Source: Clostridia bacterium (lineage in GTDB: Bacteria; Bacillota; Clostridia; Peptostreptococcales; Acidaminobacteraceae). Taken from it: a stretch of DNA of 64,000 nt. This document shows, piece by piece, positions 1,106-18,677 of the stretch; the stretch's first letter is position 1; the number at the start of each line of letters is the position of its first letter. The stretch lies in contig JAGYOH010000002.1 of NCBI GenBank assembly GCA_018399635.1, positions 1 to 64,000 of the forward strand, read 5' to 3'. The notes below the pieces were generated by a model. It had not been told where the DNA came from and did no database searches. It saw only the letters and a program-made list of their open reading frames with translations. The position numbers and the translations under genes were made by a program.

Positions 1106-3067
1106 TTATTCCACCAGTTGGCAGCCCTTTCTTCCTTTGAATACCCGGATCCTTCCCCGGGCCTGGAGGTCCTCGATATACTCCCTGATCTTTCCCTCGC
1201 TCACCGGATAGTAGCTTCGGGAGAAATCCTCCATGATGGACCGCCTGCCCGTGCCCAGGCCCAGGGCGCTCCGGCGGGCGATGATTTCCAGGACCCGGTC
1301 CCGGGGGCTGTCCCCCTTGAGATGAAGCCCCTTCAGGTTGCCCGGGAGATGCCGGACATGGAGGGGGCCCCCGGTCATCCTCACCATGTACTCCAGGGTG
1401 TTTTTGAGTTCCCGGACGTTCCCCGGCCAGGGGTACTGGCGGGCGAAGTCTTCAAAGCTCTCGTGGACTTCGCGGCTTTCCCCCAGCTCCGCCAGGAAAT
1501 GCGCCGCCAGGAGGGGCAGGTCCTCAAGATGGTCCCTCAGGGCGGGGAGTCTGATACTGAAGACGTTGAGGCGGTAGAACAGGTCCCTTCTGAAAAGACC
1601 CTCCGTCACCATCCGGTCCAGGTCCCGGTTGGAGGCGGCGATGATCCTCACATCCACATGGATGATGGCGTCCCCCCCCACCCGCATGATTTCCTTTTCC
1701 TGCAGGGCCCTCAGCAGTCTGGCCTGAAGCTGCAGGGGGATCTCCCCCACCTCGTCCAGGAAGAGAGTCCCGCCCTGGGCCTTTTCAAAGACCCCCAGCT
1801 TGCCCCCCTTTTTCGCCCCGGTAAAGGCCCCCCCCTCGTAGCCGAAAAGCTCCGACTCCAGAAGATTCTCCGGCAGGGTGGCGCAGTTGATGGCGATATA
1901 GGGCCTTTTTCTCCTGGGGGAGTCGTTGTGGATGGCCCCGGCGAAGAGTTCCTTGCCGGTACCGGTTTCCCCCAGAAGGAGGACCGCCGAGGAGGAGTCG
2001 GCGATGCTCCGGCAGATCCGGATCGTCTCCTTGACGGCCTCATGGTCGCCGAGGATATCCTTGAAGGTGTACTTGGCATAGTAGCCCTTGCCCATGAGCT
2101 GGCGGTGGAGCCGGCTCTGCTCCTTGAGGAGCTCCGAGTAGACCTTCATGAAAATCAGTTTTCCGAAGAAGACCCCCTCATAGTGGACCTCCTTGAGGTC
2201 CACCACCACCCGCTGCCCCCCCAGGTCCAGGATCTCCCCCTGGTGGTCTCCCGCCGCCTTGAGCTTCCTGAAGCCGGGGAAACTCGCGATCAGGGCGTCC
2301 AGGGACTCCCCCTCCAGCAAGGCCCTGTCCCTGCCGAGAATCTCCGCGGCCGCTTCATTGAGTAGCAGGATCTCCTCCTTGTCGTCCAGGAGGACCACCC
2401 CCCGGTCGTATTCGTTCATTACCAGATCCAGATGACCGGAGAGCATCCGCTTGTCGAAGAGGGTGTTGCGCAGCCCCTTCCAGTAGGCGGGGACCCGGGC
2501 GGCGTAGCGCCTGATGATCCGGTCGGCCCACCGCCGGTCGAGATTGAGGGTGGCGATCAGGTCCAGGATGGTGGAGGGATCGAAGATCCGGTTGCCGATG
2601 TCCACCAGCCGGTCCCCGTAGCCTTCCAGCCCCTCCAGTTCCCCGGGGGTGATGATATAGTCCACCTGGTCCGCCACCCTCATGCCGGGTTCCAGGGGAA
2701 ACAGGCTCAGCCCCTCCAGGCCGAAGCCATAGAGGGTGGCCAGGGTTTCGTTGGCCATGAAACTGTTGAGATTGTAGACATAGGCGCTTTTCCCCTTGTC
2801 CAGGCTTCGCAGGCGGCGGATGCCCTCCCCGGTGATGGTCCGCTTCATCATGACCAGGGGGGCGGGGGATTGGATGCGGTCCATCATTTCAATGAGGATG
2901 CTGGGGTCGGTATAAAGGACCACCCCGGCGTCCTGGATGAGGGGCTGGGAGGCCTTGCCCGGGCAATAGTAGTCCACCTGGACCTGGTCTTCAAAAATCT
3001 GCCTCAACTCCCGGCAGAAGATTTCACCCATCCGGTCCTCGATGACCAAAACCGCGATTTTTTTCAA
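1106..3067 (-). CDS. Sigma-54-dependent transcriptional activator with winged-helix-like C-terminus
   Basis: This 653-residue enhancer-binding protein would remodel sigma-54 RNA polymerase at -24/-12 promoters. Residues 1-190 form an unassigned sensory region, a PAS-like domain follows (about 220-320, [20 protein letters not shown]), and the AAA+ domain (about 335-565) carries Walker A GETGTGKE, the sigma-54 contact loop GAFTGA, Walker [11 protein letters not shown] and a WPGNVREL sensor. The C-terminus does not look like the usual Fis helix-turn-helix. Its last ~60 residues ([20 protein letters not shown]) look like a winged helix. It is transcribed away from a glutamine synthetase that has a sigma-54 promoter, so it is the natural candidate activator; that link is inferred from position. 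The signal it senses is unknown. A second paralogue with the same layout lies at 16683-18677. Confidence 0.88.
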
Positions 3068-3084
3068 AACGATCTCTCCTATCT

Positions 3085-3095
3085 GGATAATATCC
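3085..3095. promoter_or_regulatory. Short palindrome between activator and glnA, possible enhancer site
   Basis: GGATA-A-TATCC is an 11-base palindrome about 70 bases upstream of the -24 element of the glnA promoter and 18 bases upstream of the divergent activator start. The position suits an upstream activator sequence, but the repeat is short and binding is not demonstrated. Confidence 0.3.
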
Positions 3096-3158
3096 CATTC
3101 AAATCCATTATAACCCCATTTTCACCCCGATAACACCCCCTTTTGCCCCCTTTTTTCT

Positions 3159-3173
3159 TGGCATGGCATTTGC
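3159..3173 (+). promoter_or_regulatory. Sigma-54 (-24/-12) promoter of glnA
   Basis: TGGCAT-GGCAT-TTGC matches the sigma-54 consensus TGGCAC-N5-TTGC at all but one base, with exact spacing between the GG and GC dinucleotides. It lies 37 bases upstream of the glnA start codon. Transcription would begin about 12 bases downstream of the GC, near 3185, which excludes any translation start upstream of 3211. Confidence 0.85.
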
Positions 3174-3210
3174 GTTCTTTACAGGTACCACTCAATACAA
3201 GGAGGCTCCT

Positions 3211-4638
3211 ATGTTCAAATCCTATGAAGAAGTCCGCAAGTACATGGACGGCAAGGGCATCAAGATCGTTGATTTCAAAATCATCGACACCACCGGCCGC
3301 TGGCATCATCTCAGCATTCCAGCCACCCGGTTCACCGAGGAAACCCTGGTTCAGGGCATCGGTTTCGACGGGTCGAGCTACGGCTTTCTGTCCGTGGAAA
3401 AATCCGACATGGTTTTCATCCCCGACATCACCTCGGCCTTTTTGGAACCCCTGGCCCGGATCCCCACCCTGGTCATGATCGGCAACATCTACCAGCTCAA
3501 AGACGGCCGGGTCCGGTTTGAAGACGACCCCCGCTACCTGGTGGAAAAGGCCAAGAAGCTCCTCACGGACCTGGACATCGCCGACGAAGCCAAGTTCGGA
3601 CCCGAATTCGAATTCTACGTCCTCAACGAGGTCGCCGTCAAGAATGAAGTCAACCACATGGAGGTCTTCATCGACTCCGACCAGGGGACCTGGAAAGCCG
3701 GTGAAATCGGAGGCAACCGGGGCCTGGCCCTGCGCTCCTACAACGGCTACCACATCGACCGGCCCCAGGACCTCAGCGCCGACCTGCGCAACACCGTCTC
3801 CCTCGCCCTTGAGGAAATCGGCATCCCCATCAAGTACCACCATTCGGAGAACGGCGGCCCGGGCCAGGTGGAGATCGAGGTCATCCACGAGGACGTGGTG
3901 AAGATGGCGGACTCCACCATGAAGATCAAGTACTTCCTCAAGGCCTTCGCCGAGGCCGCGGGAAAGACCGTCACCTTCATGCCCAAGCCCTTCAACGGTG
4001 AAGCCGGCAACGGCCTGCATATCCACATGCACCTCTTCAAAGACGGCCAGCCCCTCTTCTACGATGAAAAGGGCTACTCCGGCCTCTCCGACATGGCCCT
4101 GCACGCCATCGGCGGCCTCCTCAAGCACGCCGCGGCCCTCATGCCCTTCACCAACCCCTCCACCAACTCCTACAAGCGGCTGGTCCCCGGCTTCGAGGCC
4201 CCGGTGAGCATCTGCTACGCCACCTCCAACCGCAGCGCGGTGATCCGGATTCCCGGCTACGCCACCCAGCCCATGGAGAAGCGGTTTGAAATCCGGTCCC
4301 CCGACGGCACCATGAACCCCTACTTCGCCTTCTCCGCCGTCCTCATGGCCATGATCGACGGCATCGAAAACCGGATCGACCCGGTCAAGGAAGGCTTCGG
4401 CCCCTATGACATCAACCTCTACGACCTGCCGGAGGATCAAAAGGACCTGGTCAAGGGCCTGCCCACCAACCTCCTCGAGGCCGCCGACGCCCTGGAAAAG
4501 GACCACGATTTCCTCACCCGGGACGGGGTCTTCAGCCAGAACCTCATCGACAACCAGATCGCCCGTCTGAGGAAGGCGCATGAGAAGCTGGCCCGGATGC
4601 CCCACCCCGAGGAATTCAAAATGTACTACCATCTCTAG
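3211..4638 (+). CDS. glnA: Type I glutamine synthetase
   Basis: Glutamine synthetase (475 residues) joins ammonia to glutamate with ATP in the cytoplasm. The start MFKSYEEVRKY has GGAGG at 3201-3205, five bases upstream, and lies downstream of the sigma-54 promoter; an in-frame ATG at 3163 lies inside the promoter and is rejected. Family signatures are all visible: GFDGSS near the N-terminus, EFEFYVL (metal ligands), NGEAGNGLHIHMHL, NSYKRLVPG, NRSAVIRIP and RFEIRSPDGTMNPY. Near the C-terminus NLYDLP matches the tyrosine adenylylation loop of the GSI-beta type; typical Bacillus GSI-alpha enzymes lack it. Whether it is adenylylated is not known, as no adenylyltransferase is in the window. A terminator follows at 4651-4687. 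Confidence 0.95.
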   Translation: MFKSYEEVRKYMDGKGIKIVDFKIIDTTGRWHHLSIPATRFTEETLVQGIGFDGSSYGFLSVEKSDMVFIPDITSAFLEPLARIPTLVMIGNIYQLKDGRVRFEDDPRYLVEKAKKLLTDLDIADEAKFGPEFEFYVLNEVAVKNEVNHMEVFIDSDQGTWKAGEIGGNRGLALRSYNGYHIDRPQDLSADLRNTVSLALEEIGIPIKYHHSENGGPGQVEIEVIHEDVVKMADSTMKIKYFLKAFAEAAGKTVTFMPKPFNGEAGNGLHIHMHLFKDGQPLFYDEKGYSGLSDMALHAIGGLLKHAAALMPFTNPSTNSYKRLVPGFEAPVSICYATSNRSAVIRIPGYATQPMEKRFEIRSPDGTMNPYFAFSAVLMAMIDGIENRIDPVKEGFGPYDINLYDLPEDQKDLVKGLPTNLLEAADALEKDHDFLTRDGVFSQNLIDNQIARLRKAHEKLARMPHPEEFKMYYHL

Positions 4639-4650
4639 ATTTCACCCTGC

Positions 4651-4687
4651 AAGATCCGGCCCCCTGGTCCGGATCTTTTCTTTTTTG
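4651..4687 (+). terminator. Rho-independent terminator of glnA
   Basis: AAGATCCGG at 4651-4659 pairs perfectly with CCGGATCTT at 4669-4677 and is followed by a T-rich tract (TTCTTTTTT). Confidence 0.88.
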
Positions 4688-4713
4688 CCACCACCCCCCT
4701 CATCCGGTATAAT
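4685..4713 (+). promoter_or_regulatory. Sigma-70-type promoter of the GNAT-nitrilase gene
   Basis: TTGCCA (4685-4690) and TATAAT (4708-4713) are 17 bases apart. The -35 box overlaps the tail of the glnA terminator, so the downstream gene is transcribed independently of glnA. Confidence 0.75.
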
Positions 4714-4744: not shown

Positions 4745-6286
4745 ATGGCTGATATCGATCTGAAGAAATTCGAAACCAAAATCATCGTCCGCAACATGAA
4801 ACGGGAGGATTTCGAGGCGGTCATCGCCCTGGAAAAGCTCTGTTTTCCCAGGATGATCCCCTGGACCCTCTCCCAGCTGCAAAGCCACCTCAGGGTCTTC
4901 CCCGAGGGCCAGATCGTCATCGAGGTCGACGAGGTCCTGGTGGGCTCGAGCTCGAGTCTCATCGTCAATTTCGACGAATACAGCGACCAGCACACCTATG
5001 ACGAGATCTCCGACAAGGGCTATATCACCAACCACAACCCCGAGGGGGACAACCTCTACGGCCTTGAAGTCATGGTCCATCCCGACTACCGCAACATGAA
5101 GATCGGCAAACGCCTCTACGAGGCCCGCAAGGAGCTGGCCCAGCGGCTGAACCTCAAAAGCATCGTCATCGGCGGCCGGATTCCCGGCTACCACAAGCAC
5201 GCCGACACCATGACCCCCCGCCAGTACGCCGAGGCGGTGATGGCCAAGGACCTCTACGACCCCATTCTCACCTTCCAGCTCATGAGCGGCTTCATCCTCA
5301 AGCGGATCATCAAGAAGTACCTGCCCGACGACGATTCCTCCCTGGAATACGCCACCCTGATGGAGTGGAACAACATTGAATACCAGGCCGCCAGCAAACG
5401 GCATTTCAAGACCGCCTTCCCCGTGAGAATCTGCGTCATCCAGTACATGATGAAGAAAATCGACTCCTTCGAGGAGTTCGCCCACCAGTGCGAATACTAC
5501 GTGGACGTGGCCTCCAACTACAAGTCCGACTTCGTGGTCTTCCCGGAGATCTTCACCACCCAGCTCCTCTCCTACATGGACCAGGACACCCCCAGCCAGT
5601 CGGTGAGAAAACTCACCCAGTACACCGAGGCCTACATCGAAATCTTCTCCGACTTCGCGGTCCGCTACAACGTCAACATCATCGGGGGCTCCCACTTCGT
5701 CGAGGAGGAGGGGAAGATCTACAACATCGCCTACCTTTTCAGAAGGGACGGCACCATCGACAAGCAGTACAAGCTCCACATCACCCCCAACGAGGAGCAG
5801 TGGTGGGGCATCGCCACCGGGGATGAAATCAAGGTCTTCGACACCGACTGCGGCAAGATCGCCATCCTCATCTGCTACGACATCGAATTCCCCGAGCTGG
5901 CCCGGATCGTCACGGACCAGGGGGCCAACATCATCTTCACCCCCTTCTGCACCGATGAACGCCAGGGCTACCTCAGGGTCCGCTACTGCGCCCAGGCCCG
6001 GGCGGTGGAAAACCAGATCTACACCGTCATCGCCGGCACCGTGGGCAACCTCACCCATGTGGAGAACATGGACATCCAGTACGCCCAGTCCGCCATCTTC
6101 ACCCCCTCGGACTTCAGCTTCCCCAGGGACGGCATCATGGCGGAAACCACCCCCAACATCGAAATGGTCATCGTGGGAGATGTGGACCTCGAGCTCCTCA
6201 AGCGGTCCCGCCACTCCGGCACCGTGACCTTGCTCAAGAACCGGCGGGACGACCTCTATGAGCTGGTCCAGTCCGGCAAGAAATAG
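4745..6286 (+). CDS. GNAT acetyltransferase fused to carbon-nitrogen hydrolase
   Basis: This 513-residue protein has two enzymes in one chain. Residues about 15-200 are a GNAT N-acetyltransferase (VHPDYRNMKIGKRLYEARKE, the acetyl-CoA loop). Residues about 225-500 are a nitrilase-superfamily hydrolase with its Glu-Lys-Cys triad: FPEIFT, YKLHITPNE and ILICYDIEFPE. The architecture matches a known Firmicutes family that includes Bacillus YhcX, whose substrate is not settled; an amide released from an acylated amine is plausible. ATG at 4745 follows a GGAG site and a good promoter; upstream in-frame codons belong to glnA sequence and are not used. Placement after glnA suggests a nitrogen-salvage role, but this is inference. 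Confidence 0.88.
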   Translation: MADIDLKKFETKIIVRNMKREDFEAVIALEKLCFPRMIPWTLSQLQSHLRVFPEGQIVIEVDEVLVGSSSSLIVNFDEYSDQHTYDEISDKGYITNHNPEGDNLYGLEVMVHPDYRNMKIGKRLYEARKELAQRLNLKSIVIGGRIPGYHKHADTMTPRQYAEAVMAKDLYDPILTFQLMSGFILKRIIKKYLPDDDSSLEYATLMEWNNIEYQAASKRHFKTAFPVRICVIQYMMKKIDSFEEFAHQCEYYVDVASNYKSDFVVFPEIFTTQLLSYMDQDTPSQSVRKLTQYTEAYIEIFSDFAVRYNVNIIGGSHFVEEEGKIYNIAYLFRRDGTIDKQYKLHITPNEEQWWGIATGDEIKVFDTDCGKIAILICYDIEFPELARIVTDQGANIIFTPFCTDERQGYLRVRYCAQARAVENQIYTVIAGTVGNLTHVENMDIQYAQSAIFTPSDFSFPRDGIMAETTPNIEMVIVGDVDLELLKRSRHSGTVTLLKNRRDDLYELVQSGKK

Positions 6287-9523: not shown

Positions 9524-10711
9524 TCACGCCTCTTCGAGCAAGTCGAGGATGGCCGTCACATAGACCTTGACCCCCACCTTGAAGAGTTCCTCGTCCAGAT
9601 CGAAGGCGGGATGGTGGAGTTCATGGATGATTCCCTTGGCCTCATTGCGGGTGCCGATGTAGAGATAGGTCCCCGGCCTCTCCATGGCGAAATAGGAAAA
9701 ATCCTCGGCGCTCATGGAGGGGTACTTGACGGGAACCACTCCTCCGGGTCCCAGGGCCTCCCTGGCGGAAGCCATGACCTTGAGGGTGAGTTCCTCGTCA
9801 TTGATGGTGGGGGGGAACCGCTTGTGGTAGGTGAATTCAAAGTCCGCCCCGTAGGTGTCGCAGATCCCCCGGATCACCGCCGCCATCTTGTCCTTGATGA
9901 CGTCCCGGATCTCGTTCTGGTAGGTCCTGACGGTGCCCTTGAGCCGACAGACCGCCGGTGTGACATTGTAGGCGTCCCCGGCGTTGAAGGCGGTGACGCC
10001 GATCACCACGGGTTCAAAGGGATTGAGGACCCTGGCCACCCCCGCCGGCAGTCCCGTCACCACCTGGGCCCCCACCATGACGGGGTCCACGGTGAGATAG
10101 GGTTTGCCCACATGACCGCCCTTTCCCCGGATGACGATGTCGAAAATATCCGGAGAGGCCATGACGGCTCCGGTCTTGATGCCCACGGTGCCCACGGGAA
10201 GCTCCGGCCAGACATGGCCGCCCAGAACATAATCCACCCGGGGGTTTTCAAGCACCCCTTCCCGGACCATGGGCTCGGCACCCCCCTCGGATTCCTCCGC
10301 CGGCTGGAATAGAAACTTGACCTGGCCCTTGAAATCCTCCTTCAGATCATTGAGGACCATCAGGGTCCCCAGGGCCATGGTCATATGGGCGTCGTGGCCG
10401 CAGGCGTGCATGACGCCGGGATTCAGTGACTTGTAGGGCTTGTCTCCCTCTTCTGAAATAGGCAGGGCGTCCATGTCCGTCCTGAGGGCGACGGTCTTTC
10501 CCGGTCCCCCGCCCTTCAAGGTGGCGGCCAGGGCGGTCCCCGTCAGGCCCTCCTGATGGACAAGGTCATAGTCCTTTAGAAAATCCTCAATGAAGGCCCG
10601 GGTCCCGACCTCTTCAAAGCTCAGTTCGGGCATCCGGTGAAGCTGCCGGCGCATGGCCACCCATCCGTCGAAGTATTTTTCGATGAGTTCATCGACTCGC
10701 TGGTCCATCAT
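9524..10711 (-). CDS. M20 family amidohydrolase (N-acyl-amino-acid/hippurate type)
   Basis: This 395-residue cytoplasmic metalloenzyme would cleave an acyl or peptide bond next to an amino acid. Metal-binding motifs of peptidase family M20D are present: TDMDALPI, MHACGHDAHM, FQPAEESEGGA and, near the C-terminus, SAEDFSYFA. A dimerisation domain (about 180-295) interrupts the catalytic domain. The start is one of two adjacent ATG codons (10711 or 10708) after AAGGAGAGG. It is divergent from the peptide transporter operon at 10981-16419, so it may act on imported peptides or conjugates. The substrate cannot be read from the sequence. Confidence 0.88.
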   Translation of the reverse strand: MMDQRVDELIEKYFDGWVAMRRQLHRMPELSFEEVGTRAFIEDFLKDYDLVHQEGLTGTALAATLKGGGPGKTVALRTDMDALPISEEGDKPYKSLNPGVMHACGHDAHMTMALGTLMVLNDLKEDFKGQVKFLFQPAEESEGGAEPMVREGVLENPRVDYVLGGHVWPELPVGTVGIKTGAVMASPDIFDIVIRGKGGHVGKPYLTVDPVMVGAQVVTGLPAGVARVLNPFEPVVIGVTAFNAGDAYNVTPAVCRLKGTVRTYQNEIRDVIKDKMAAVIRGICDTYGADFEFTYHKRFPPTINDEELTLKVMASAREALGPGGVVPVKYPSMSAEDFSYFAMERPGTYLYIGTRNEAKGIIHELHHPAFDLDEELFKVGVKVYVTAILDLLEEA

Positions 10712-10805
10712 CTATTTCATCCTCTCCTTCAGTGAATTGCTGACCTATTGAAAATGCAAGTCTGATGCCAAGGATTTTTGCCGGAATCGACCCCCGGACC
10801 GGTCC

Positions 10806-10851
10806 TTTACAGGACTTACAGTTGGTTTTATATTTTCGTATGTCCTGTAAA
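10806..10851. promoter_or_regulatory. Long inverted repeat upstream of the dpp sigma-54 promoter
   Basis: TTTACAGGAC (10806-10815) is the exact reverse complement of GTCCTGTAAA (10842-10851), with 26 bases between. The centre is about 80 bases upstream of the -24 element, the usual place for enhancer-binding protein sites. An extra half-site TTACAG lies at 10816-10821. Confidence 0.6.
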
Positions 10852-10907
10852 ACGGGGAAAAGGGTGAAAAAACCCCGCTTTTCCCCCCACCCCTCCCTGC
10901 CGCCTCT

Positions 10908-10922
10908 TGGCATCACTCTTGC
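10908..10922 (+). promoter_or_regulatory. Sigma-54 (-24/-12) promoter of the peptide transporter operon
   Basis: TGGCAT-CACTC-TTGC fits the sigma-54 consensus with exact spacing, 58 bases upstream of the first gene start. The same TGGCAT variant is used at the glnA promoter (3159-3173). Confidence 0.85.
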
Positions 10923-10980: not shown

Positions 10981-12591
10981 ATGAAAAAGTATCTAAGTTT
11001 CCTGCTCATTGCGATTCTGGCCCTGTCCCTGGTCGCCTGTGCCAGCCAACCCGCGGAGGAGCCGGCACCGGCTGAAGAACCCGCCGCTGAAGAACCCGCC
11101 GCCGAAGAGCCCGCCGCCGAGGAACCTGCCGGAGACAGCAAGTACGGCGGGGAAATCGTCATCACGGACTTCCCCTTCACCGATGTGAAGTCCCTGGATC
11201 CCCATGTGGTCAGTGCCGCCGGAGAAATGCGACACATTGAGAACATGTACAACGGACTCCTGCGATACAAGGAGGGGACCTACGGTGAAGTCGAGGGAGA
11301 CCTGGCCAAGAGCTATTCGGTTTCCGACGACAACCTCACCTACACCTTCGAGCTTCATGAAGGGGTGACCTTCCACAACGGCGATCCTTTGACCGCCGCC
11401 GACGTGAAGTATTCCATTGAAAGAATCATCGAGCAGGAGGTCAGAGCCTCCTACTTCGCGGGTCTCGTCAGCATTGAAACCCCCGACGACACCACCGTGG
11501 TCATCACCCTGGAAAAACCGGTGGCCCCCTTCACCACCTTCCTGGCCAACCCCATGACCGCCATCGTCAACAAAAACGTGGTGGAAGCCAATGACGGCTC
11601 CCTGGCCACCGTCGATGCCGGCAGCGGCCCCTTCATGCTGGATTCCTGGCAGAAGGACCAGCAGATGACCCTGGTGAAATTCGACGATTACTTTGAAGAA
11701 GGCCTGCCCTATCTCGACAAGGTGGTCCTCAAGCCCATCCCCGAGGAATCCGCCAGAAACACCGCCCTTCGCACCGGTGAAGTGGATCTGATCCTCCAGG
11801 TGGACGCCAAGGATGTCATGACCCTTGAAAAAGAAGACGGCATCGTCATCGATTCCGTTCCAGGCAGCTACTGGGAGTACATCGGCATGAACATGCGCGA
11901 GGGTCCCCTGGCCGTCAAGGAAGTGCGTCAGGCCATCGCCCACGGCATCGACAAGGAAGCCATGAACCAGGCCATCAAATTCGGTGAAGCCACGGTCCTC
12001 ACCGGCGCCATGATTCCTCCGGGACACTGGGCCTACGCCGATCTGGACATGTACCCCGCCCAGAATCTCGAGAAAGCTGAAGAACTCCTGGCCGCAGGCG
12101 GCTATCCCGACGGCTTCGCGGTCGAGATGATCGTCCTCTCCAACAGCGACATCGCCATCGCCGCCGCCCAGATGACCAAACAGCAGCTGGCCCCCCTGGG
12201 CATCGACGTCACCGTCAGCGCCCTTGAGTCCGGCGTCTACTTTGAGAAACTGGGTTCAGGAGACTTCGAACTCACGGAAATCGGCTGGGTGGGCTTCATC
12301 GATCCCGACGAATTCCTCTACAACATCTTCTACACCGACGGCATGTGGAACCAGCAGGGTTACTCGAATCCGGAATTCGACGCCCTCCTCGACCAGGGCC
12401 GCACCACCCTTGACCAGGCCGCCCGAAAAGAAATCTACTACGAAGCCCAGGACATCCTGGCTGACGACGCTCCCATGGCCTTCCTCTACGTGAACAACCA
12501 GATTTCCGCCTACAGAGACCATGTGAAGGGCTTTGACGTCAACGCCACCGTCACCTTGAAGTCACTCAAAAACACCTGGCTGGAAAAATAA
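10981..12591 (+). CDS. dppA: Peptide ABC transporter substrate-binding lipoprotein
   Basis: This is the extracellular solute-binding protein (536 residues, SBP_bac_5 family) of a dipeptide/oligopeptide importer. A lipoprotein signal ends in LVAC with the lipidated cysteine at residue 20. A low-complexity linker of AEEP units spans residues 25-50. The mature domain starts GGEIVITDF and contains the family signature region around YNGLLRYKEG and DPLTAADVKYSIERI. ATG at 10981 follows GGAGAGG. It is the first gene of an operon with two permeases and two ATPases, behind a sigma-54 promoter. The dpp name reflects family similarity; specificity for dipeptides, oligopeptides or nickel is not proven. 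Confidence 0.92.
   Translation: MKKYLSFLLIAILALSLVACASQPAEEPAPAEEPAAEEPAAEEPAAEEPAGDSKYGGEIVITDFPFTDVKSLDPHVVSAAGEMRHIENMYNGLLRYKEGTYGEVEGDLAKSYSVSDDNLTYTFELHEGVTFHNGDPLTAADVKYSIERIIEQEVRASYFAGLVSIETPDDTTVVITLEKPVAPFTTFLANPMTAIVNKNVVEANDGSLATVDAGSGPFMLDSWQKDQQMTLVKFDDYFEEGLPYLDKVVLKPIPEESARNTALRTGEVDLILQVDAKDVMTLEKEDGIVIDSVPGSYWEYIGMNMREGPLAVKEVRQAIAHGIDKEAMNQAIKFGEATVLTGAMIPPGHWAYADLDMYPAQNLEKAEELLAAGGYPDGFAVEMIVLSNSDIAIAAAQMTKQQLAPLGIDVTVSALESGVYFEKLGSGDFELTEIGWVGFIDPDEFLYNIFYTDGMWNQQGYSNPEFDALLDQGRTTLDQAARKEIYYEAQDILADDAPMAFLYVNNQISAYRDHVKGFDVNATVTLKSLKNTWLEK
11053..11130 (+). repeat. Tandem AAEEP-coding repeats in the lipoprotein linker
   Basis: Residues 25-50 are an AEEP-rich repeat encoded by nearly identical 15-base units. 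It forms a flexible acidic tether between the lipid anchor and the binding domain. Copy number could vary by slippage. Confidence 0.8.
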
Positions 12592-12605
12592 GTGCCATTT
12601 AAGGG

Positions 12606-12637
12606 AAAGCCGGCTTCCTTAAGCCGGCTTTTCTTTT
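12606..12637 (+). terminator. Intra-operon hairpin (partial terminator/attenuator)
   Basis: AAAGCCGGCTT (12606-12616) pairs perfectly with AAGCCGGCTTT (12621-12631) over a four-base loop, followed by TCTTTTC. Placed after the binding protein and before the permeases, it would let the binding protein be made in excess, as is common in such operons. Confidence 0.75.
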
Positions 12638-12665
12638 CATCATCTCAAGGAGGTGCTCAAACAAG

Positions 12666-13607
12666 GTGCTAAAGTATATCCTCAAAAGAATTCTAGTGGC
12701 ACTGCCTGTCATTTTCGGCATATCCATCATTGCCTTTTTTTTGATTCGACTGGTTCCCGGAGACACCATCACGGCTCTCCTGGGCGCCAATTACAATGAA
12801 GAGCAGGCCCTGATCCTGAGGGCCAAGTACGGCCTGGACCAGCCCCTGCCGGTCCAGTACCTGATCTGGCTCAAAAACGTCCTGGCCGGCGATTTCGGAA
12901 TCTCCTTCTTCACCAAGGAGCCCGTGGTCAAGATCATCATGGAGCGCCTGCCCGTGACCCTGGAGCTCATGCTCATCAGCCTGCTCTATTCCGTTTTCGT
13001 GGCCATTCCCCTGGGCACCATCGCCGCGGTCAAGCGGAATTCCGCCACGGATTACGGCGCCAGTGTCTTCGGTCTCCTGGGCGTGTCCATCCCCAACTTC
13101 TGGCTGGGCATCCTGCTCATCGCCTTTTTTTCACTCCATCTCAGGTGGCTCCCCTCGGGAGGCTTCGTCAGCTTCGGGGTGGATCCCCTTGAAAATCTCC
13201 GCCACATGATCATGCCATCCATCGCCCTCGGAACCGCCGTGGGGGCGGTCATCATGCGGATGACCCGCTCCTCCATGCTCGAAGTCCTCGGACAGGAATA
13301 CATCAAAATGGCGGACGCCAAGGGCGTGACCAATAGACGTCTGATCTTTCACCATGCCCTGAAAAACAGCTTCGTGCCCATCGTCACGGTCCTGGGCATC
13401 CAGATGGGCTACCTTCTGGGAGGCAGCGTGGTCATTGAAAAGATCTTCGCCCTGCCGGGCATCGGACAACTGTCCCTGCAGGCCATCACCAACCGGGACT
13501 ACGCCCTGCTGCAGGGCTGCATCCTCCTCATCGCCACCGGCTTCGTGGTGATCAACCTGGTGGTGGACATCATCTATGGCTTTTTGGATCCAAAAATACG
13601 CTACTGA
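12666..13607 (+). CDS. dppB: Peptide ABC transporter permease, DppB type
   Basis: This 313-residue inner-membrane permease has six hydrophobic segments. The first is at residues 9-30 (ILVALPVIFGISIIAFFLI). The cytoplasmic EAA loop that contacts the ATPases is visible around GQEYIKMADAKGV and HALKNSFVPI. The C-terminal segment ends YGFLDPKIRY, typical of DppB/OppB. The start is GTG at 12666 after GGAGG at 12649-12653. It would pair with DppC to form the channel. Family assignment is secure; substrate is not. Confidence 0.92.
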   Translation: MLKYILKRILVALPVIFGISIIAFFLIRLVPGDTITALLGANYNEEQALILRAKYGLDQPLPVQYLIWLKNVLAGDFGISFFTKEPVVKIIMERLPVTLELMLISLLYSVFVAIPLGTIAAVKRNSATDYGASVFGLLGVSIPNFWLGILLIAFFSLHLRWLPSGGFVSFGVDPLENLRHMIMPSIALGTAVGAVIMRMTRSSMLEVLGQEYIKMADAKGVTNRRLIFHHALKNSFVPIVTVLGIQMGYLLGGSVVIEKIFALPGIGQLSLQAITNRDYALLQGCILLIATGFVVINLVVDIIYGFLDPKIRY

Positions 13608-13622
13608 CAAGGAGGTCGTCTT

Positions 13623-14462
13623 ATGGGCGAAACATGGTACCGCTTTAGAAAAAACAAACTCGCCTTCACCGGATTTGCCATTTTGATGGTCTTCGTGTTC
13701 CTGGCGATTTTCGCACCCCTCATCGCACCCTACGATCCCTTCACCATGCACGTGGAGGATCGTCTGCAGACCCCCGGCTCAAACTACCTTTTCGGGACGG
13801 ACCAGTTCGGCCGTGACATCCTCAGCCGGATCATCCACGGCGCCAGAATCTCCTTCCAGGTGGGCATCATTTCCGTGGGCATCTCCCTGGTGGCCGGCCT
13901 GGCCCTGGGCATCGCCGCCGGCTACTACGGCAAGTGGGTGGACATGGTCATCTCCCGTCTCATCGATATCATGTTTTCCTTCCCCGATATCTTTCTGGCC
14001 CTGGTCATCATGGCCATCCTGGGGACCAGTCTCACCAATGTCATGATCGCCATCGGCATCGTCTACACCCCGATTTTCGCCAGGATCGCCCGGGGGGCCA
14101 CCCTCACCGTCAAGGACAACGCCTACATCGAGGCGGCCCGGTCCATCGGGGTGGGGGATTTCATGACCATCCTGCGGCATATCCTGCCCAATATCATGGC
14201 CCCCCTCATCGTCCAGACCACCCTTTCCTTCGGCTTCGCCATCCGGTCCGAAGCGGCCCTGAGTTTTCTGGGCCTCGGCGTCCAGCCCGACGTCCCCTCC
14301 TGGGGCATCATGCTCAACGAAGGCAAGGAATGGCTGGAACTCGGCTGGTGGATCGCCTTTTTCCCGGGTCTGGCCGCCACCCTGGCCATCCTCAGTTTCA
14401 ATGTCCTGGGGGACGGCCTCAGGGACGCCCTGGACCCCAAACTCAGAAATGAATCCGAATAA
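13623..14462 (+). CDS. dppC: Peptide ABC transporter permease, DppC type
   Basis: This 279-residue permease begins with a short cytoplasmic arm (WYRFRKNKLAFTGFAIL) and carries the N-terminal OppC/DppC signature APYDP and FGTDQFGRDILSR. Six membrane segments follow, and the EAA loop is at YIEAARSIGVGDF with HILPNIMAP. The C-terminus LGDGLRDALDPKLR is characteristic of the family. ATG at 13623 follows AAGGAGG, 15 bases after dppB. It forms the heterodimeric channel with the preceding permease. Confidence 0.92.
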   Translation: MGETWYRFRKNKLAFTGFAILMVFVFLAIFAPLIAPYDPFTMHVEDRLQTPGSNYLFGTDQFGRDILSRIIHGARISFQVGIISVGISLVAGLALGIAAGYYGKWVDMVISRLIDIMFSFPDIFLALVIMAILGTSLTNVMIAIGIVYTPIFARIARGATLTVKDNAYIEAARSIGVGDFMTILRHILPNIMAPLIVQTTLSFGFAIRSEAALSFLGLGVQPDVPSWGIMLNEGKEWLELGWWIAFFPGLAATLAILSFNVLGDGLRDALDPKLRNESE

Positions 14463-14477
14463 AGGAGGCGATTCCTA

Positions 14478-15458
14478 ATGGCTGAAGTCATTTTAGACGT
14501 CCAAAACCTCAAAACCCATTTTAGAACCCATCAGGGGATTGTCAAAGCCGTGGACGGGGTCAGTTTCAAGGTCCACCGCGGCGAAACCTACGCCCTGGTG
14601 GGAGAATCCGGCAGCGGCAAAAGCGTCACCTGCATGACCGTCATGGGCCTCATCGGCAAGAAGAAGGACGAGGTGGTCACCGGAGACATCTACTTCAAGG
14701 GGACCAACCTCACCAGGCTCTCCCTGGAGGACCGCCGCCGGCTGCGGGGCAAGCACATGGCCATCATCTTCCAGGACCCCATGACCTCCCTCAATCCCGT
14801 CTACACCGTGGGCACCCAGATCGCTGAGATGCCCATCATCCACGAAGGCAGTGACAAGAAATCCGCCTGGCAGGTGGCGGTTGAAATGCTCCGCAAGGTG
14901 GGAATCCCCTCCCCCGGGGACCGGGCCAGGGACTACCCCCACCAGTTCAGCGGCGGCATGCGGCAAAGAGGGGTCATCGGCATGTCCCTGTCCCTCGATC
15001 CCGACCTCCTCATCGCCGACGAACCCACCACCGCCCTGGATGTCACCATCCAGGCCCAGATCCTGGACCTCATGAAGGATCTCAAGGACCAGACCAACGC
15101 CGCCATCGTCATGATCACCCACGACCTCGGGGTGGTGGCCCAGATCGCCGACCATGTCGGGGTCATGTACGCCGGCACCATCGTGGAAACCGCCGACGTC
15201 AGGACCCTCTACAAGGACCCCCGCCACCCCTATACCCGGGGACTGCTCAACTCCATTCCCAAGCCCGGGTCCAAGGACCGGCTGGAGATCATCAAGGGTC
15301 AGCCGCCGGACCTGCACAATGTGCCCAAGGGCTGCAGCTTCTCCCCCCGCTGCCCCTACGCCCATGACCGCTGCCAGGAGGCGCCTCCGGTGGTGGAAGT
15401 GGCGCCGGGACACCAGGTGGCCTGCTGGCTCATGAAGGAGGATCAAGACCATGCCTGA
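14478..15458 (+). CDS. dppD: Peptide ABC transporter ATPase, DppD type
   Basis: This 326-residue ATP-binding subunit has Walker A GESGSGKS, Q-loop FQDPMTSLNPV, the ABC signature FSGGMRQR, Walker B LLIADEPTTALD and H-loop ITHDLG. The C-terminal oligopeptide-transporter extension contains four cysteines (CSFSPRCPYAHDRC and a later C), which in DppD-type proteins may bind an iron-sulfur cluster. ATG at 14478 follows AAAGGAGG. It overlaps the next gene by eight bases, so the two ATPases are translationally coupled. Confidence 0.93.
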   Translation: MAEVILDVQNLKTHFRTHQGIVKAVDGVSFKVHRGETYALVGESGSGKSVTCMTVMGLIGKKKDEVVTGDIYFKGTNLTRLSLEDRRRLRGKHMAIIFQDPMTSLNPVYTVGTQIAEMPIIHEGSDKKSAWQVAVEMLRKVGIPSPGDRARDYPHQFSGGMRQRGVIGMSLSLDPDLLIADEPTTALDVTIQAQILDLMKDLKDQTNAAIVMITHDLGVVAQIADHVGVMYAGTIVETADVRTLYKDPRHPYTRGLLNSIPKPGSKDRLEIIKGQPPDLHNVPKGCSFSPRCPYAHDRCQEAPPVVEVAPGHQVACWLMKEDQDHA

Positions 15459-16419
15459 TAAACCACTCATCGAGGTCCGGGGCCTCAAAAAACACTTTCC
15501 CGTCAAGGCCCCCTTCCTGTCCGGGGAAAAACTCCTGGTCAAGGCGGTGGACGGTCTCGACTTCAACATCTATCCCGGGGAGACCCTGGGTCTGGTGGGG
15601 GAATCCGGCTGTGGCAAGTCCACCACCGGCAGACTCCTCCTCAGACTCCTCGAGCCCACCCAGGGGCAGGTCTTCTTCGAAGGCCAGGACCTCACCGCCC
15701 TCAAGCAGCAGACCCTCAAGGCCATGCGGCGGAACTTCCAGATGGTCTTCCAGGATCCCTACGCCTGTCTCAACCCCCGGCTCAAGGTCAAGGACATCCT
15801 GAACGAACCCCTGGCCACCCACCACATCGACCCCAAAAGCCGAAAAAAGATGATCCTCACCCTCCTGGAGCAGGTGGGAATCCCCAAAAGCTACATGGAC
15901 CGCTATCCCCATGAATTCAGCGGCGGCCAGCGACAGCGCATCGGCATCGCCAGGGCCCTGAGTCTCAACCCCAAGTTCATCGTCGCCGACGAACCCGTGG
16001 CGGCCCTCGATGTCTCCATCCAGGCCCAGATTCTCAATCTCATGAAGGACCTGCAGCAGGAACTCAACCTCACCTACCTCTTCATCGCCCACGATCTCAG
16101 CGTGGTGCAGTATATTTCCGACCGCATCGGGGTCATGTATCTGGGACAGCTCGTGGAACTCACCCGGACCGAAAAACTCTTTGACAACCCCTCTCATCCT
16201 TACACCCGGGTCCTCCTCAGCGCTGTCCCTGTACCGGATCCCGACCACGTCTATGAAGCCTCCACCATCGTCAAGGGAGAAATCCCCAGCCCCATCAACC
16301 CTCCCTCGGGATGCGCCTTCCATCCCCGCTGTCCCCACGCCATGGCCGTCTGTTCCAGGGAAAAACCCGTGATCAAGGACATCGGCGACGGCCACAAGGT
16401 GGCCTGTCATCTCTACTGA
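15451..16419 (+). CDS. dppF: Peptide ABC transporter ATPase, DppF type
   Basis: This 322-residue second ATPase completes the heterodimeric motor. It has Walker [10 protein letters not shown]-loop [11 protein letters not shown], signature FSGGQRQR, Walker [13 protein letters not shown] and the H-loop IAHDLS. The C-terminal region has the cysteine set [17 protein letters not shown] at 15451 is read from within the end of dppD after GGAGG. It is the last gene of the operon; a clear terminator follows at 16453-16481. Confidence 0.93.
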
Positions 16420-16452
16420 CAAGGTATCCCGGACACCTCAACAGTCCCTGAA

Positions 16453-16682: not shown

Positions 16683-18677
16683 TCAGGACTGGAGACTGAG
16701 GACCTTGAGGCCCTCCGGGGTGATTTTCGTCCCCTGCTTGCCGATGCCTACGGCAATGTAACCCGCTGCCTTGAGTTCCTCAAGAAGGCCCCTGACCTCC
16801 CGCTCCGTCAGAAATATCCCCCGGTCCTCCAGGGCCTTCATCAGACTCAGGCGGCCCACCTTTTCCCGGGACTCCAGCTTTTCCTTGAGAATCCTCAGGA
16901 TGCCGTGTTTTTCCTCGCCGACGTGGTAGGTCTCCTCCTTCTGGCTGATGGCCCTTCGAAAGGTGTAGGGCAGCCCTTCGACGGCGATTTTTTCTTCGGA
17001 CATGAAGGCCAGGTACTCGGCGATGTTTCTCAGCTCCCGGACGTTCCCCGGCCAGGAGTAGGCCGTGAAAATTTCAAAGAGGCCCTCCTCGATGGCCTTG
17101 ACGGATTTGAACTCCTTGAGGAAATGGTGGAAGAGCACCGGGATGTCCTCCTTGCGGTCCCGAAGGGGAGGGACCGTCAGGGGAAAGACGTTGAGGCGGT
17201 AGTAGAGGTCCCACCGGAACCTGCCTTCCCTGGCCAGGGCATTGAGGTCCCGGTTGGTGGCGGCGATGATCCTGACGTCCACCCGGCGGATCCTGGTGGA
17301 GCCGATGCGGATGATTTCCGACTCCTGCAGGACCCTGAGAAGCCGCGACTGCATCCCCAGACTCAGCTCCGCGATCTCATCGAAGAAGAGGGTCCCGTGA
17401 TGGGCCTGCTCGAAGAGACCGATCTTCCCCTCCTTCTTGGCCCCGGTGAAGGCCCCGGTTTCATAGCCGAAGAGCTCCGACTCGACGAGATTCTCCGGCA
17501 GGGCGGCGCAGTTGATGGCCAGGTAGGGAAATTTCGCCCGGTCCGAGGCATTGTGGATGGCCGCGGCAAAGAGTTCCTTGCCGGTGCCGCTCTCCCCGGT
17601 GATGAGGATGGTGGACTGGGCCGTGGCCATCTTCCGGGTCAGCTTCTTCACCCTCCGGATAAGGGGGCTCTCCCCGATGATCTCGTCGATGGTGTACTTG
17701 GCCACATGGCCGAAAAGGGAAATGTCCTTGCGGACCATGTCCTCCAGCCGCTTGATTTCCGTGACATTTCTCAGAATGATCATGTCCCCCACCTTCTGGT
17801 TGAAGACGTAGATGGGCTTGGTGCTGACGATGAGCTTCTCGTTGTGGTACTTCACCAGCTGGTCCGAAACGTAGCGGGTGTCCCCCAGGGACCGGCTGAT
17901 GTGGGGAATGATCTCGTCGATGGACCTGCCCATGAGGGCGGCATTGGAAAGAATCTTCTTGGACGCCTCGTTCACCATGATGACATTGCCGTCGTTGTCC
18001 GTCTCGATGACCCCCTCGTTGATGAGGTTGACGATGGTGTTCTTTTCCTGCTGGACATAGACGTTGTCGTCGATGAGGCTGGAAACCCCCCGGTCCACGG
18101 TGACGATGGTCTTCTGGTACTTCTGGATGACGGCCTCCCGTTCACTGGCCTCAAGATCCAGTTCATTGAGCAGGTCCAGGATGGTGTCCACGTCGTAGAC
18201 CATGTGGCCGATATTGTAGATGGTCTCCACGGTATCCGGAATCAGATGGACCTCGTTGGTGGTGATGGCCACCTTGATTTCATCGATGGGCTCCACCCCG
18301 GGATAAAAGGGGTAGAGCTCGAAGTCAAAGCCCAGGGAATAGATGGAGGAAATGGTTTCAAAGGTCACATCGATGCCGTTGTTCACCAGGTAGATCCTTT
18401 CCTTGACATCGATCATTTTGAGCAGGTCGAAGGACTTGTTGGTGAAGGTTCTCCGGATGGGGATGATTTTCGTGGTGGGCTTCAAGTGCTTCCTCACCAG
18501 GTTGATCATGAGGGGGGTGGACATCAGGAGAATGTCCACATCGATGCCCTTGCGGTCGATCTTGTTGAAGTTGAAGGAGGTGATGGTGAACCGGTCCCCC
18601 AGCACCGCATCGAGTACCTCGTGGTAAAACTGTTTGGTATTGTCATTCAGGGCGCCGACGCCGATGATCTTGGCCAT
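16683..18677 (-). CDS. Sigma-54-dependent transcriptional activator, likely regulator of the peptide transporter
   Basis: This 664-residue paralogue of the activator at 1106-3067 has the same layout: an unassigned N-terminal sensory region (1-200, opening MAKIIGVGALNDN), a PAS domain (about 215-325, GVIETDNDGNVIMVNEASK), an AAA+ domain (about 340-570) with GESGTGKE, GAFTGA, GTLFFDEIAE and WPGNVREL, and a C-terminal region that looks like a winged helix (EREVRGLLEELKAAGYIAV) and not a Fis domain. Start ATG at 18677 follows GAGGAGTGAGG. It is convergent with and adjacent to the sigma-54-promoted transporter operon, so it probably activates it via the inverted repeat at 10806-10851; this is inferred from neighbourhood only. 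It has its own sigma-70-type promoter. Confidence 0.88.
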   Translation of the reverse strand: MAKIIGVGALNDNTKQFYHEVLDAVLGDRFTITSFNFNKIDRKGIDVDILLMSTPLMINLVRKHLKPTTKIIPIRRTFTNKSFDLLKMIDVKERIYLVNNGIDVTFETISSIYSLGFDFELYPFYPGVEPIDEIKVAITTNEVHLIPDTVETIYNIGHMVYDVDTILDLLNELDLEASEREAVIQKYQKTIVTVDRGVSSLIDDNVYVQQEKNTIVNLINEGVIETDNDGNVIMVNEASKKILSNAALMGRSIDEIIPHISRSLGDTRYVSDQLVKYHNEKLIVSTKPIYVFNQKVGDMIILRNVTEIKRLEDMVRKDISLFGHVAKYTIDEIIGESPLIRRVKKLTRKMATAQSTILITGESGTGKELFAAAIHNASDRAKFPYLAINCAALPENLVESELFGYETGAFTGAKKEGKIGLFEQAHHGTLFFDEIAELSLGMQSRLLRVLQESEIIRIGSTRIRRVDVRIIAATNRDLNALAREGRFRWDLYYRLNVFPLTVPPLRDRKEDIPVLFHHFLKEFKSVKAIEEGLFEIFTAYSWPGNVRELRNIAEYLAFMSEEKIAVEGLPYTFRRAISQKEETYHVGEEKHGILRILKEKLESREKVGRLSLMKALEDRGIFLTEREVRGLLEELKAAGYIAVGIGKQGTKITPEGLKVLSLQS

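Follow-up and report, generated by a model that had tools for sequence, protein, structure and literature searches.

A predicted sigma-54 promoter and a divergent non-NtrC activator at glnA in a Bacillota lineage near Fusibacter

Known control of glnA and layout of the locus

Sigma-54 owes its discovery to glutamine synthetase in enterobacteria, and sigma-54 control of this enzyme, with NtrC as the activator, is the textbook case there. In Bacilli, glnA is controlled by GlnR and TnrA, which act on sigma-A promoters. The enterobacterial case also appears in the introductions of two papers (PMC3162934 and PMC12316311). The former contrasts it with B. subtilis, in which sigma-54 acts through glutamate dehydrogenase, and the latter, a cross-phylum survey, describes control of glutamine synthetase by sigma-54 as found "primarily" in Pseudomonadota. 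Nie et al. (2019) reconstructed sigma-54 regulons in 57 Clostridiales species (PMC6615313), and the words "glutamine", "glnA", "Fusibacter" and "Sedimentibacter" are absent from the main text of that survey. Searches of the open-access literature on sigma-54 and glnA in Clostridia or Firmicutes, supplements aside, yielded no description of the present pair of an enhancer-binding protein (EBP) and glnA. The sequence-only reading of the present locus had called a Firmicutes glnA under sigma-54 with a non-NtrC activator unusual, which fits both the main text of PMC6615313 and the word "primarily" in PMC12316311.

The window, the whole stretch of 64,000 nucleotides that was analyzed, comprises bases 1-64000 of its contig, in a genome of 2.36 Mb with a completeness of 95.55%. 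The host is a Bacillota lineage near Fusibacter. Its nearest relative among the genomes compared, ML8_F1, belongs to the same genus, and Fusibacter ferrireducens and Fusibacter sp. 3D3 belong to the same GTDB family. The record of ML8_F1 (L039; LQBE01000027.1) bears the title "delta proteobacterium ML8_F1"; it clusters with Fusibacter-family genomes, and the title is probably wrong. The features of the locus are as follows.

1106-3067, minus strand: EBP gene, 653 aa, start codon TTG at 3067, divergent from glnA
3082-3120: predicted operator (upstream activating sequence), outer arms TGGA and CCCCATT, inner CCCATT copy at 3094-3099
3085-3095: 11-bp palindrome GGATAATATCC, formed by the left outer arm of the operator and the inner copy; related dyads in L039, L041 and L044
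3107-3112, minus strand: TATAAT (ATTATA on the plus strand) within the predicted operator, possible -10 element of the EBP gene
3158-3173, plus strand: -24/-12 sigma-54 promoter TTGGCATGGCATTTGC, 53 nt upstream of glnA, kept in 7/7 pairs
3184-3185, plus strand: predicted transcription start, about 12 nt past the GC of the -12 element
3199-3205, plus strand: ribosome-binding site AAGGAGG, preceding glnA
3211-4638, plus strand: glnA, assigned as type I glutamine synthetase, 475 aa (TIGR00653; Gln-synt_C and Gln-synt_N)
4651-4677, plus strand: intrinsic terminator hairpin followed by a T tract, fold of -16.1 kcal/mol, equalled in 0/200 shuffles, unlisted by the pattern scanner
4745-6286, plus strand: GNAT acetyltransferase fused to a carbon-nitrogen hydrolase (GNAT-nitrilase fusion), probably a separate unit

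A sigma-70-like TTGCCA-17-TATAAT at 4685-4713 precedes the GNAT-nitrilase fusion gene. Since a hairpin with a T tract follows glnA and the next gene has a promoter-like sequence of its own, glnA is probably a single-gene unit. Among the seven loci with an EBP-glnA pair, the fusion gene adjoins glnA only in the genus of the window (the window and L039).

The sigma-54 promoter logic of the locus is known; the activator, the operator and the lineage are new, in that they were not found in print. In the enterobacterial NtrB/NtrC-PII system, too, a type I glutamine synthetase gene follows a sigma-54 promoter, and an AAA+ EBP acts, as is predicted here, from upstream sites. The present locus differs in that a receiver domain, PII and GlnE are missing, the activator gene is divergent, the operator is different, and DNA binding is by a Fis-type domain there and, judging from relatives, by a winged helix here. 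Nitrogen control of glnA in Bacillota is shared with GlnR/TnrA, as far as the presumed nitrogen purpose holds here, whereas the promoters are of the sigma-A type there and of the sigma-54 type here. Among PrpR-type EBPs, which have an N-terminal effector domain, E. coli PrpR aligns with the predicted two-lobed N-terminal domain of the window EBP, which is followed by PAS and AAA+ domains; this N-terminal domain has no Pfam match and only a fold-level likeness, no greater than that to unrelated binding proteins, and the C-terminus is a predicted winged helix. The Clostridiales regulons in PMC6615313 share an EBP beside its target operon, the promoter TTGGCATNNNNNTTGCT and conserved upstream sites; their main text, however, gives no glutamine synthetase target, and fifteen EBP groups there have TGT/ACA half-sites with spacers of 10-12 bp, in contrast to TGGGA/TCCCA with 25-26 here.

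The predicted promoter, its proposed activator and the glutamine synthetase gene

A near-consensus -24/-12 promoter had been claimed before glnA, and the claim was borne out. The site at 3158-3173, TTGGCA-N6-TTGC, carries GG and GC dinucleotides 10 bp apart and differs from the Clostridiales consensus TTGGCATNNNNNTTGCT (PMC6615313) at the last base only; "near-consensus" fits it, and "consensus" would not. It was missed by the stricter consensus TGGCACN5TTGCW with one mismatch allowed (T instead of C, and G instead of A/T as the last base), the matches to which showed no excess over chance (2 against 1.44 expected). There are three copies of the TTGGCA-N6-TTGC pattern in the window; 100 shuffles averaged 0.11 copies, and none reached three. 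Genome-wide, TTGGCAYNNNNYTTGC gave 11 matches, compared with 2 for the same pattern reversed as a control. By coordinates, seven of these matches have an EBP AAA+ domain no more than 1.3 kb away, two lie in the peptide-transport locus of the window, about 6 kb from an EBP, and two have no EBP nearby. The genome encodes rpoN (sigma-54) and 12 full EBPs. Sigma-54 transcription starts about 12 nt after the GC of the -12 element, and the start at 3184-3185 was predicted on this basis. A weak sigma-70-like TTCAAA-17-GATAAT at 3063-3091 (9/12; each shuffle of the region scanned is expected to contain 0.9 promoter-like sites) could be a source of basal glnA transcription.

An RNA leader (T-box or riboswitch) before glnA was considered and rejected. 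Rfam over 14 sources gave 3 matches, and no EBP-linked glnA was preceded by any of them; L068 has a T-box on the same strand as its glnA, past the 3' end of that gene.

The EBP gene was indeed found divergent from glnA, as had been read from the letters. The product of 1106-3067 (minus strand) is a full EBP, in which the AAA+ sigma-54 activation domain spans residues 338-510 (PF00158 Sigma54_activat, E=2.7e-68). The Pfam scan of this protein gave the sigma-54 activation domain, the AAA+ lid and a trace of PAS. Walker motifs and GAFTGA are present in all seven glnA-linked EBPs, GAFTGA reading GSFTGA in three of them. The domain order is as follows.

Residues ~1-195: predicted two-lobed sensor
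Residues ~205-310: PAS domain
Residues 338-510: AAA+ domain, followed by the lid
C-terminus: predicted winged helix

A profile search placed the PAS domain at about 207-307, with the PAS domains of DcuS, TyrR and CitA as relatives. The fold agrees, and the structural model of the sensor and the PAS domain matches PAS domains. The N-terminal ~200 residues of the window EBP matched no Pfam family at E up to 1, and relatives gave stray single matches only. The model of the N-terminal domain, with a mean pLDDT of 87, shows alternating strands and helices. Searched alone in Foldseek, it gave nothing under an E of 0.001, the best E being 1.5e-3 for other folds. The top VIA-align rows were metal-binding proteins (Z 8-9.5) over ~100 residues, which is half of the domain; the whole domain matched ribose-binding-type proteins at Z ~6. 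The comparison with E. coli PrpR (2pju_D) gave a Z of 6.3 with 166 residues aligned and an rmsd of 4.9, not above unrelated binding proteins. From this model, we read the N-terminal domain as a two-lobed, binding-protein-like sensor, at the level of the fold only. At the C-terminus, relatives matched winged-helix families (HTH_12 in 6 of 10 members, best E 2.2e-7) rather than the Fis HTH; the window EBP itself has no significant HTH match.

A reading of this protein as NtrC was rejected, the receiver domain, the Fis HTH and PII all being missing. The Pfam scan of the window EBP matched neither a receiver domain nor a Fis-type HTH (HTH_8), and the NtrC model covered the AAA+ part only (287.7 of 558.6 bits). 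The PrpR model was also confined to the AAA+ part (291.4 bits against a cut-off of 499.2), and PrpR_N was not found by sequence. In the window genome, at a completeness of 95.55%, PII gave no matches (the control rings in 13 of 14), GlnE was not found, and no EBP exceeded the NtrC cut-off, the best two scoring 411 and 390 of 558.6 bits. As far as this assembly tells, the classical nitrogen cascade is absent. The best reading of the EBP is a one-component metabolite sensor that would switch glnA on through sigma-54. Control of glnA by sigma-54 through a divergent non-NtrC activator in this Bacillota lineage is supported at the sequence level, since rpoN is present, the promoter occurs in 7/7 pairs against 0/15 unlinked genes, and the features that define NtrC are missing.

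By its sequence, the glnA product is a type I glutamine synthetase. It passes TIGR00653 (487.5 bits against a cut-off of 429.15), lies far under the cut-offs of gamma-glutamylputrescine synthetase (176.3 against 650) and of type III (204.5 against 469.6), and has glutamine synthetases as its best solved relatives. A second, long (~630 aa) gene of the glutamine synthetase (GS) family is present in 7/7 genomes with an EBP-glnA pair, and a third GS-family gene in both Fusibacter genomes and in Sedimentibacter. The long GS of the window genome (L003 1000-2895, 631 aa) is divergent in sequence, with 120 of the 429 bits of the GlnA cut-off, and keeps the DGSS motif.

Conservation of the pair and the predicted operator

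A named genome collection was scanned with the N-terminal half of the EBP, which returned 10 loci. Six of them have a divergent EBP-glnA pair (ML8_F1, Fusibacter sp. 3D3, F. ferrireducens, Sedimentibacter acidaminivorans and two Tissierellales MAGs), and four (L045-L048) have the EBP without glnA. In all seven pairs, the window and the six relatives, TTGGCA-N6-TTGC lies within 130 nt of the glnA start. The contrast set was made of GlnA genes of the same GTDB family, in which such a gene was found at E<=1e-40 in 22 of 41 genomes. The pattern was found upstream of none of the 15 full-length, similar GlnA genes without the EBP in this family. Left out of the 7-versus-15 count were partial genes (L078 and L079) and genes of ~35% identity (L080, L081, L083, L084 and L085); L060-L063 are the same loci as the window, L039, L044 and L041. 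By a loose sigma-54 score, the unlinked L075, L076 and L077 are near-significant (9.5, 9.5 and 8.5, against 11.0-11.5 for the linked seven); they were counted as negative because the GG of the -24 element is missing. L064 was also counted as negative because its TGGCAGCTTTATTGC, 231 nt from the slice end, precedes an apparent terminator hairpin. In the upstream regions of the unlinked glnA genes L074-L077, in some relatives, a repeated AAAATTTG-type element stands beside a likely sigma-A promoter and is perhaps the operator of another regulator.

Among the GlnAs compared, the linked ones form one clade with a support of 100/100, and the glnA-linked EBPs form one clade with a support of 99/100. 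Since both partners each form one clade, these trees fit a pair that arose once and was then inherited or transferred together. The N-terminal profile was also run over a sample of 393 genomes of the order, where it matched seven genomes at E<=1e-60, of which only four score above 600 bits, as glnA-linked EBPs do. In ~4 kb around each EBP of the other three (L102-L104), glnA was not seen. In L104, a distant relative, TTGGCA-N6-TTGC precedes the EBP gene itself (~2534-2549), which suggests self-activation rather than self-repression.

The sequence-only reading had noted a palindrome between the EBP gene and glnA. The palindrome is exact at 3085-3095; however, the operator is probably not this palindrome itself but a longer inverted repeat that contains it and has an additional, inner copy. 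The palindrome alone as the operator was rejected in favor of this longer repeat on the basis of the alignment of the intergenic regions, the scoring of half-site pairs and the inverted-repeat scan. The scan of 3068-3210 found no repeat with arms of at least 8 nt, and 11 bp alone is too short for significance; the weight of GGATAATATCC comes from its conservation among relatives and not from its own statistics. The inverted repeat AATGGGA-N25/26-TCCCATT, with a total reach of 39-40 bp, occurs with variation across the EBP clade, and the predicted operator lies in the same register in 7/7 EBP-glnA pairs in the intergenic alignment. One arm of the window operator at 3082-3120 is degenerate. The extra inner CCCATT, 21 bp before the right arm, is found in the Fusibacter genomes and in those of ML8_F1 and the window, and creates the short dyad.

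We scored TGGGA/TCCCA pairs with any spacer of 15-31 in the 250 nt upstream of 16 clade EBPs. The best inverted pair had a spacer of 25 or 26 in 14 of them, with 9-10 of 10 matches; the two exceptions are the window and L039, in which the outer arm is decayed. The best pair of the window in this blind scan, which did not pick the degenerate outer arm, was equalled in 171/200 shuffles. For more distant EBPs, 19 upstream regions were scored; no score exceeded 8, and a spacer of 26 was seen in one region. In single-locus tests of the 14 with a swap-based shuffle, the counts run from 0 to 53 of 200, so that the case for the operator rests on the common spacer; several of the 14 loci are close kin and hence not independent. 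The window's own operator is supported by alignment to relatives, including a run identical to L039 without a break from ATCCCATT to CCCCATTT. Genome-wide, TGGG-N26-28-CCCA, which is too loose as a pattern, showed no enrichment (139 against 169 for the control).

In the window, the center of the predicted operator lies ~57 bp upstream of the -24 element, and its right arm ends 38 bp before this element, compared with 40-91 bp in the other pairs. According to the main text of the Clostridiales survey (PMC6615313), upstream sites of sigma-54 promoters are usually 100-250 bp from the promoter; the window operator is thus unusually close. It is also 15-53 nt upstream of the EBP start and overlaps the TATAAT at 3107-3112, at which no -35/-10 pair of at least 9/12 was reported on the minus strand. 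Binding to the operator may also repress the EBP's own gene by covering this TATAAT.

Clade EBPs not beside glnA adjoin nitrogen-releasing genes where these were identified, namely carbamoyl-amino-acid/allantoate amidohydrolase and M20 amidohydrolase. Sister EBPs with the same operator form are found in L034 (4936-6975 onward), L035, L045, L046 and L048; their neighbors read as N-carbamoyl-amino-acid/allantoate amidohydrolase, a YfcC-type transporter, M20 amidohydrolase and an isochorismatase-fold hydrolase, families that were checked for L034 and L035 only.

Elsewhere in the window, mirror-image -24/-12 promoters at 10756-10771 (minus strand) and 10907-10922 (plus strand) lie between an M20 amidohydrolase gene (9524-10711) and a divergent oligopeptide-type ABC operon (10981-16422). 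Between these promoters is an inverted repeat, TTTACAGGAC-N26-GTCCTGTAAA at 10806-10851, with a spacer equal to that of the glnA-type operator and different half-sites. A second EBP (16683-18677) is the likely activator of the two promoters.

The proposed circuit and its alternatives

We consider it likely that glnA is a one-gene sigma-54 unit activated by its divergent EBP. This is the best explanation because the promoter, the EBP with intact AAA+ and GAFTGA motifs, and the operator are conserved and occur together. In the proposed circuit, an effector would bind the two-lobed N-terminal domain and/or the PAS domain of the EBP, oligomers of which would assemble on the operator at 3082-3120, ~57 bp upstream of the -24 element. 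The EBP would then hydrolyze ATP, and contact and open the RNA polymerase-sigma-54 complex waiting at 3158-3173. By covering the TATAAT in the operator, it would probably limit its own expression. The most likely purpose would be to raise glutamine synthetase above the baseline of the second, long GS whenever the cell runs short of glutamine or usable nitrogen, and the circuit would work without PII, NtrB/NtrC or GlnE. This purpose is suggested in part by the sister EBPs beside carbamoyl-amino-acid/allantoate amidohydrolase, YfcC and M20 genes.

The main rival accepts the same circuit and changes the signal alone, so that its confidence overlaps with that of the best explanation. According to it, the EBP senses a given amino acid, ureide or peptide breakdown product rather than nitrogen shortage, and glnA takes part in that catabolism or traps the ammonia that it yields. 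The carbamoylase/YfcC/M20 operons beside other clade EBPs would suit such a signal, as would the second GS in 7/7 genomes, the carriers, which include an amino-acid fermenter by name (Sedimentibacter acidaminivorans), and L042, in which glnA is followed by genes of an M18 aminopeptidase and an aminotransferase. On the other hand, glnA is the only gene beside the EBP common to 7/7 loci, and no catabolic gene shares a common operon with it. We regard this signal as a real, if less than even, possibility. A different enzyme, a GlnA-like gamma-glutamyl-amine ligase, is very improbable: another GS gene in the window genome would leave room for it, but the product scores 487.5 bits, over the GlnA cut-off of 429.15 and far under those of gamma-glutamylputrescine synthetase and type III, and its best solved relatives are glutamine synthetases.

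The remaining alternatives concern the two DNA sites. It is highly improbable that the -24/-12 match arose by chance and that glnA, like its relatives, is transcribed from a sigma-A promoter, with the EBP acting elsewhere. Some unlinked glnA genes do have good sigma-A-like promoters (L067, for example, at 11/12), and the window has the weak sigma-70-like match at 3063-3091; against this stand the contrast of 7/7 linked with 0/15 unlinked genes and the three sites in the window where 0.11 are expected. A role of the operator chiefly in autoregulation of the EBP, rather than as the enhancer of glnA, seems unlikely. The position of the operator 15-53 nt upstream of the window EBP start, across the TATAAT, would be explained in this way, but the operators of L040 and L043 are at a good distance from the EBP start and still between the EBP gene and the promoter, and a single site can serve both roles.

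Returning to the sigma-54 unit activated by the divergent EBP, we tentatively suggest a further reading, to which we give rather less than even weight. According to this reading, glnA left sigma-A once, in one Bacillota lineage, and came under sigma-54 independently of Proteobacteria, with a one-component EBP that would sense a nitrogen metabolite directly, by means of a binding-protein-like domain, and would so stand in, as one protein, for PII, NtrB and NtrC. If glnA did come under sigma-54 control a second time, in a lineage whose examined genome is without PII and GlnE, it may be asked whether an all-or-none, ATP-dependent promoter is generally fitted to glutamine synthetase. The pair is named and can be tested in cultured species, Fusibacter ferrireducens and Sedimentibacter acidaminivorans, and the predicted operator gives predicted targets for the whole EBP clade. 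A familiar control circuit has seemingly been rebuilt with different parts in a group of anaerobic bacteria.
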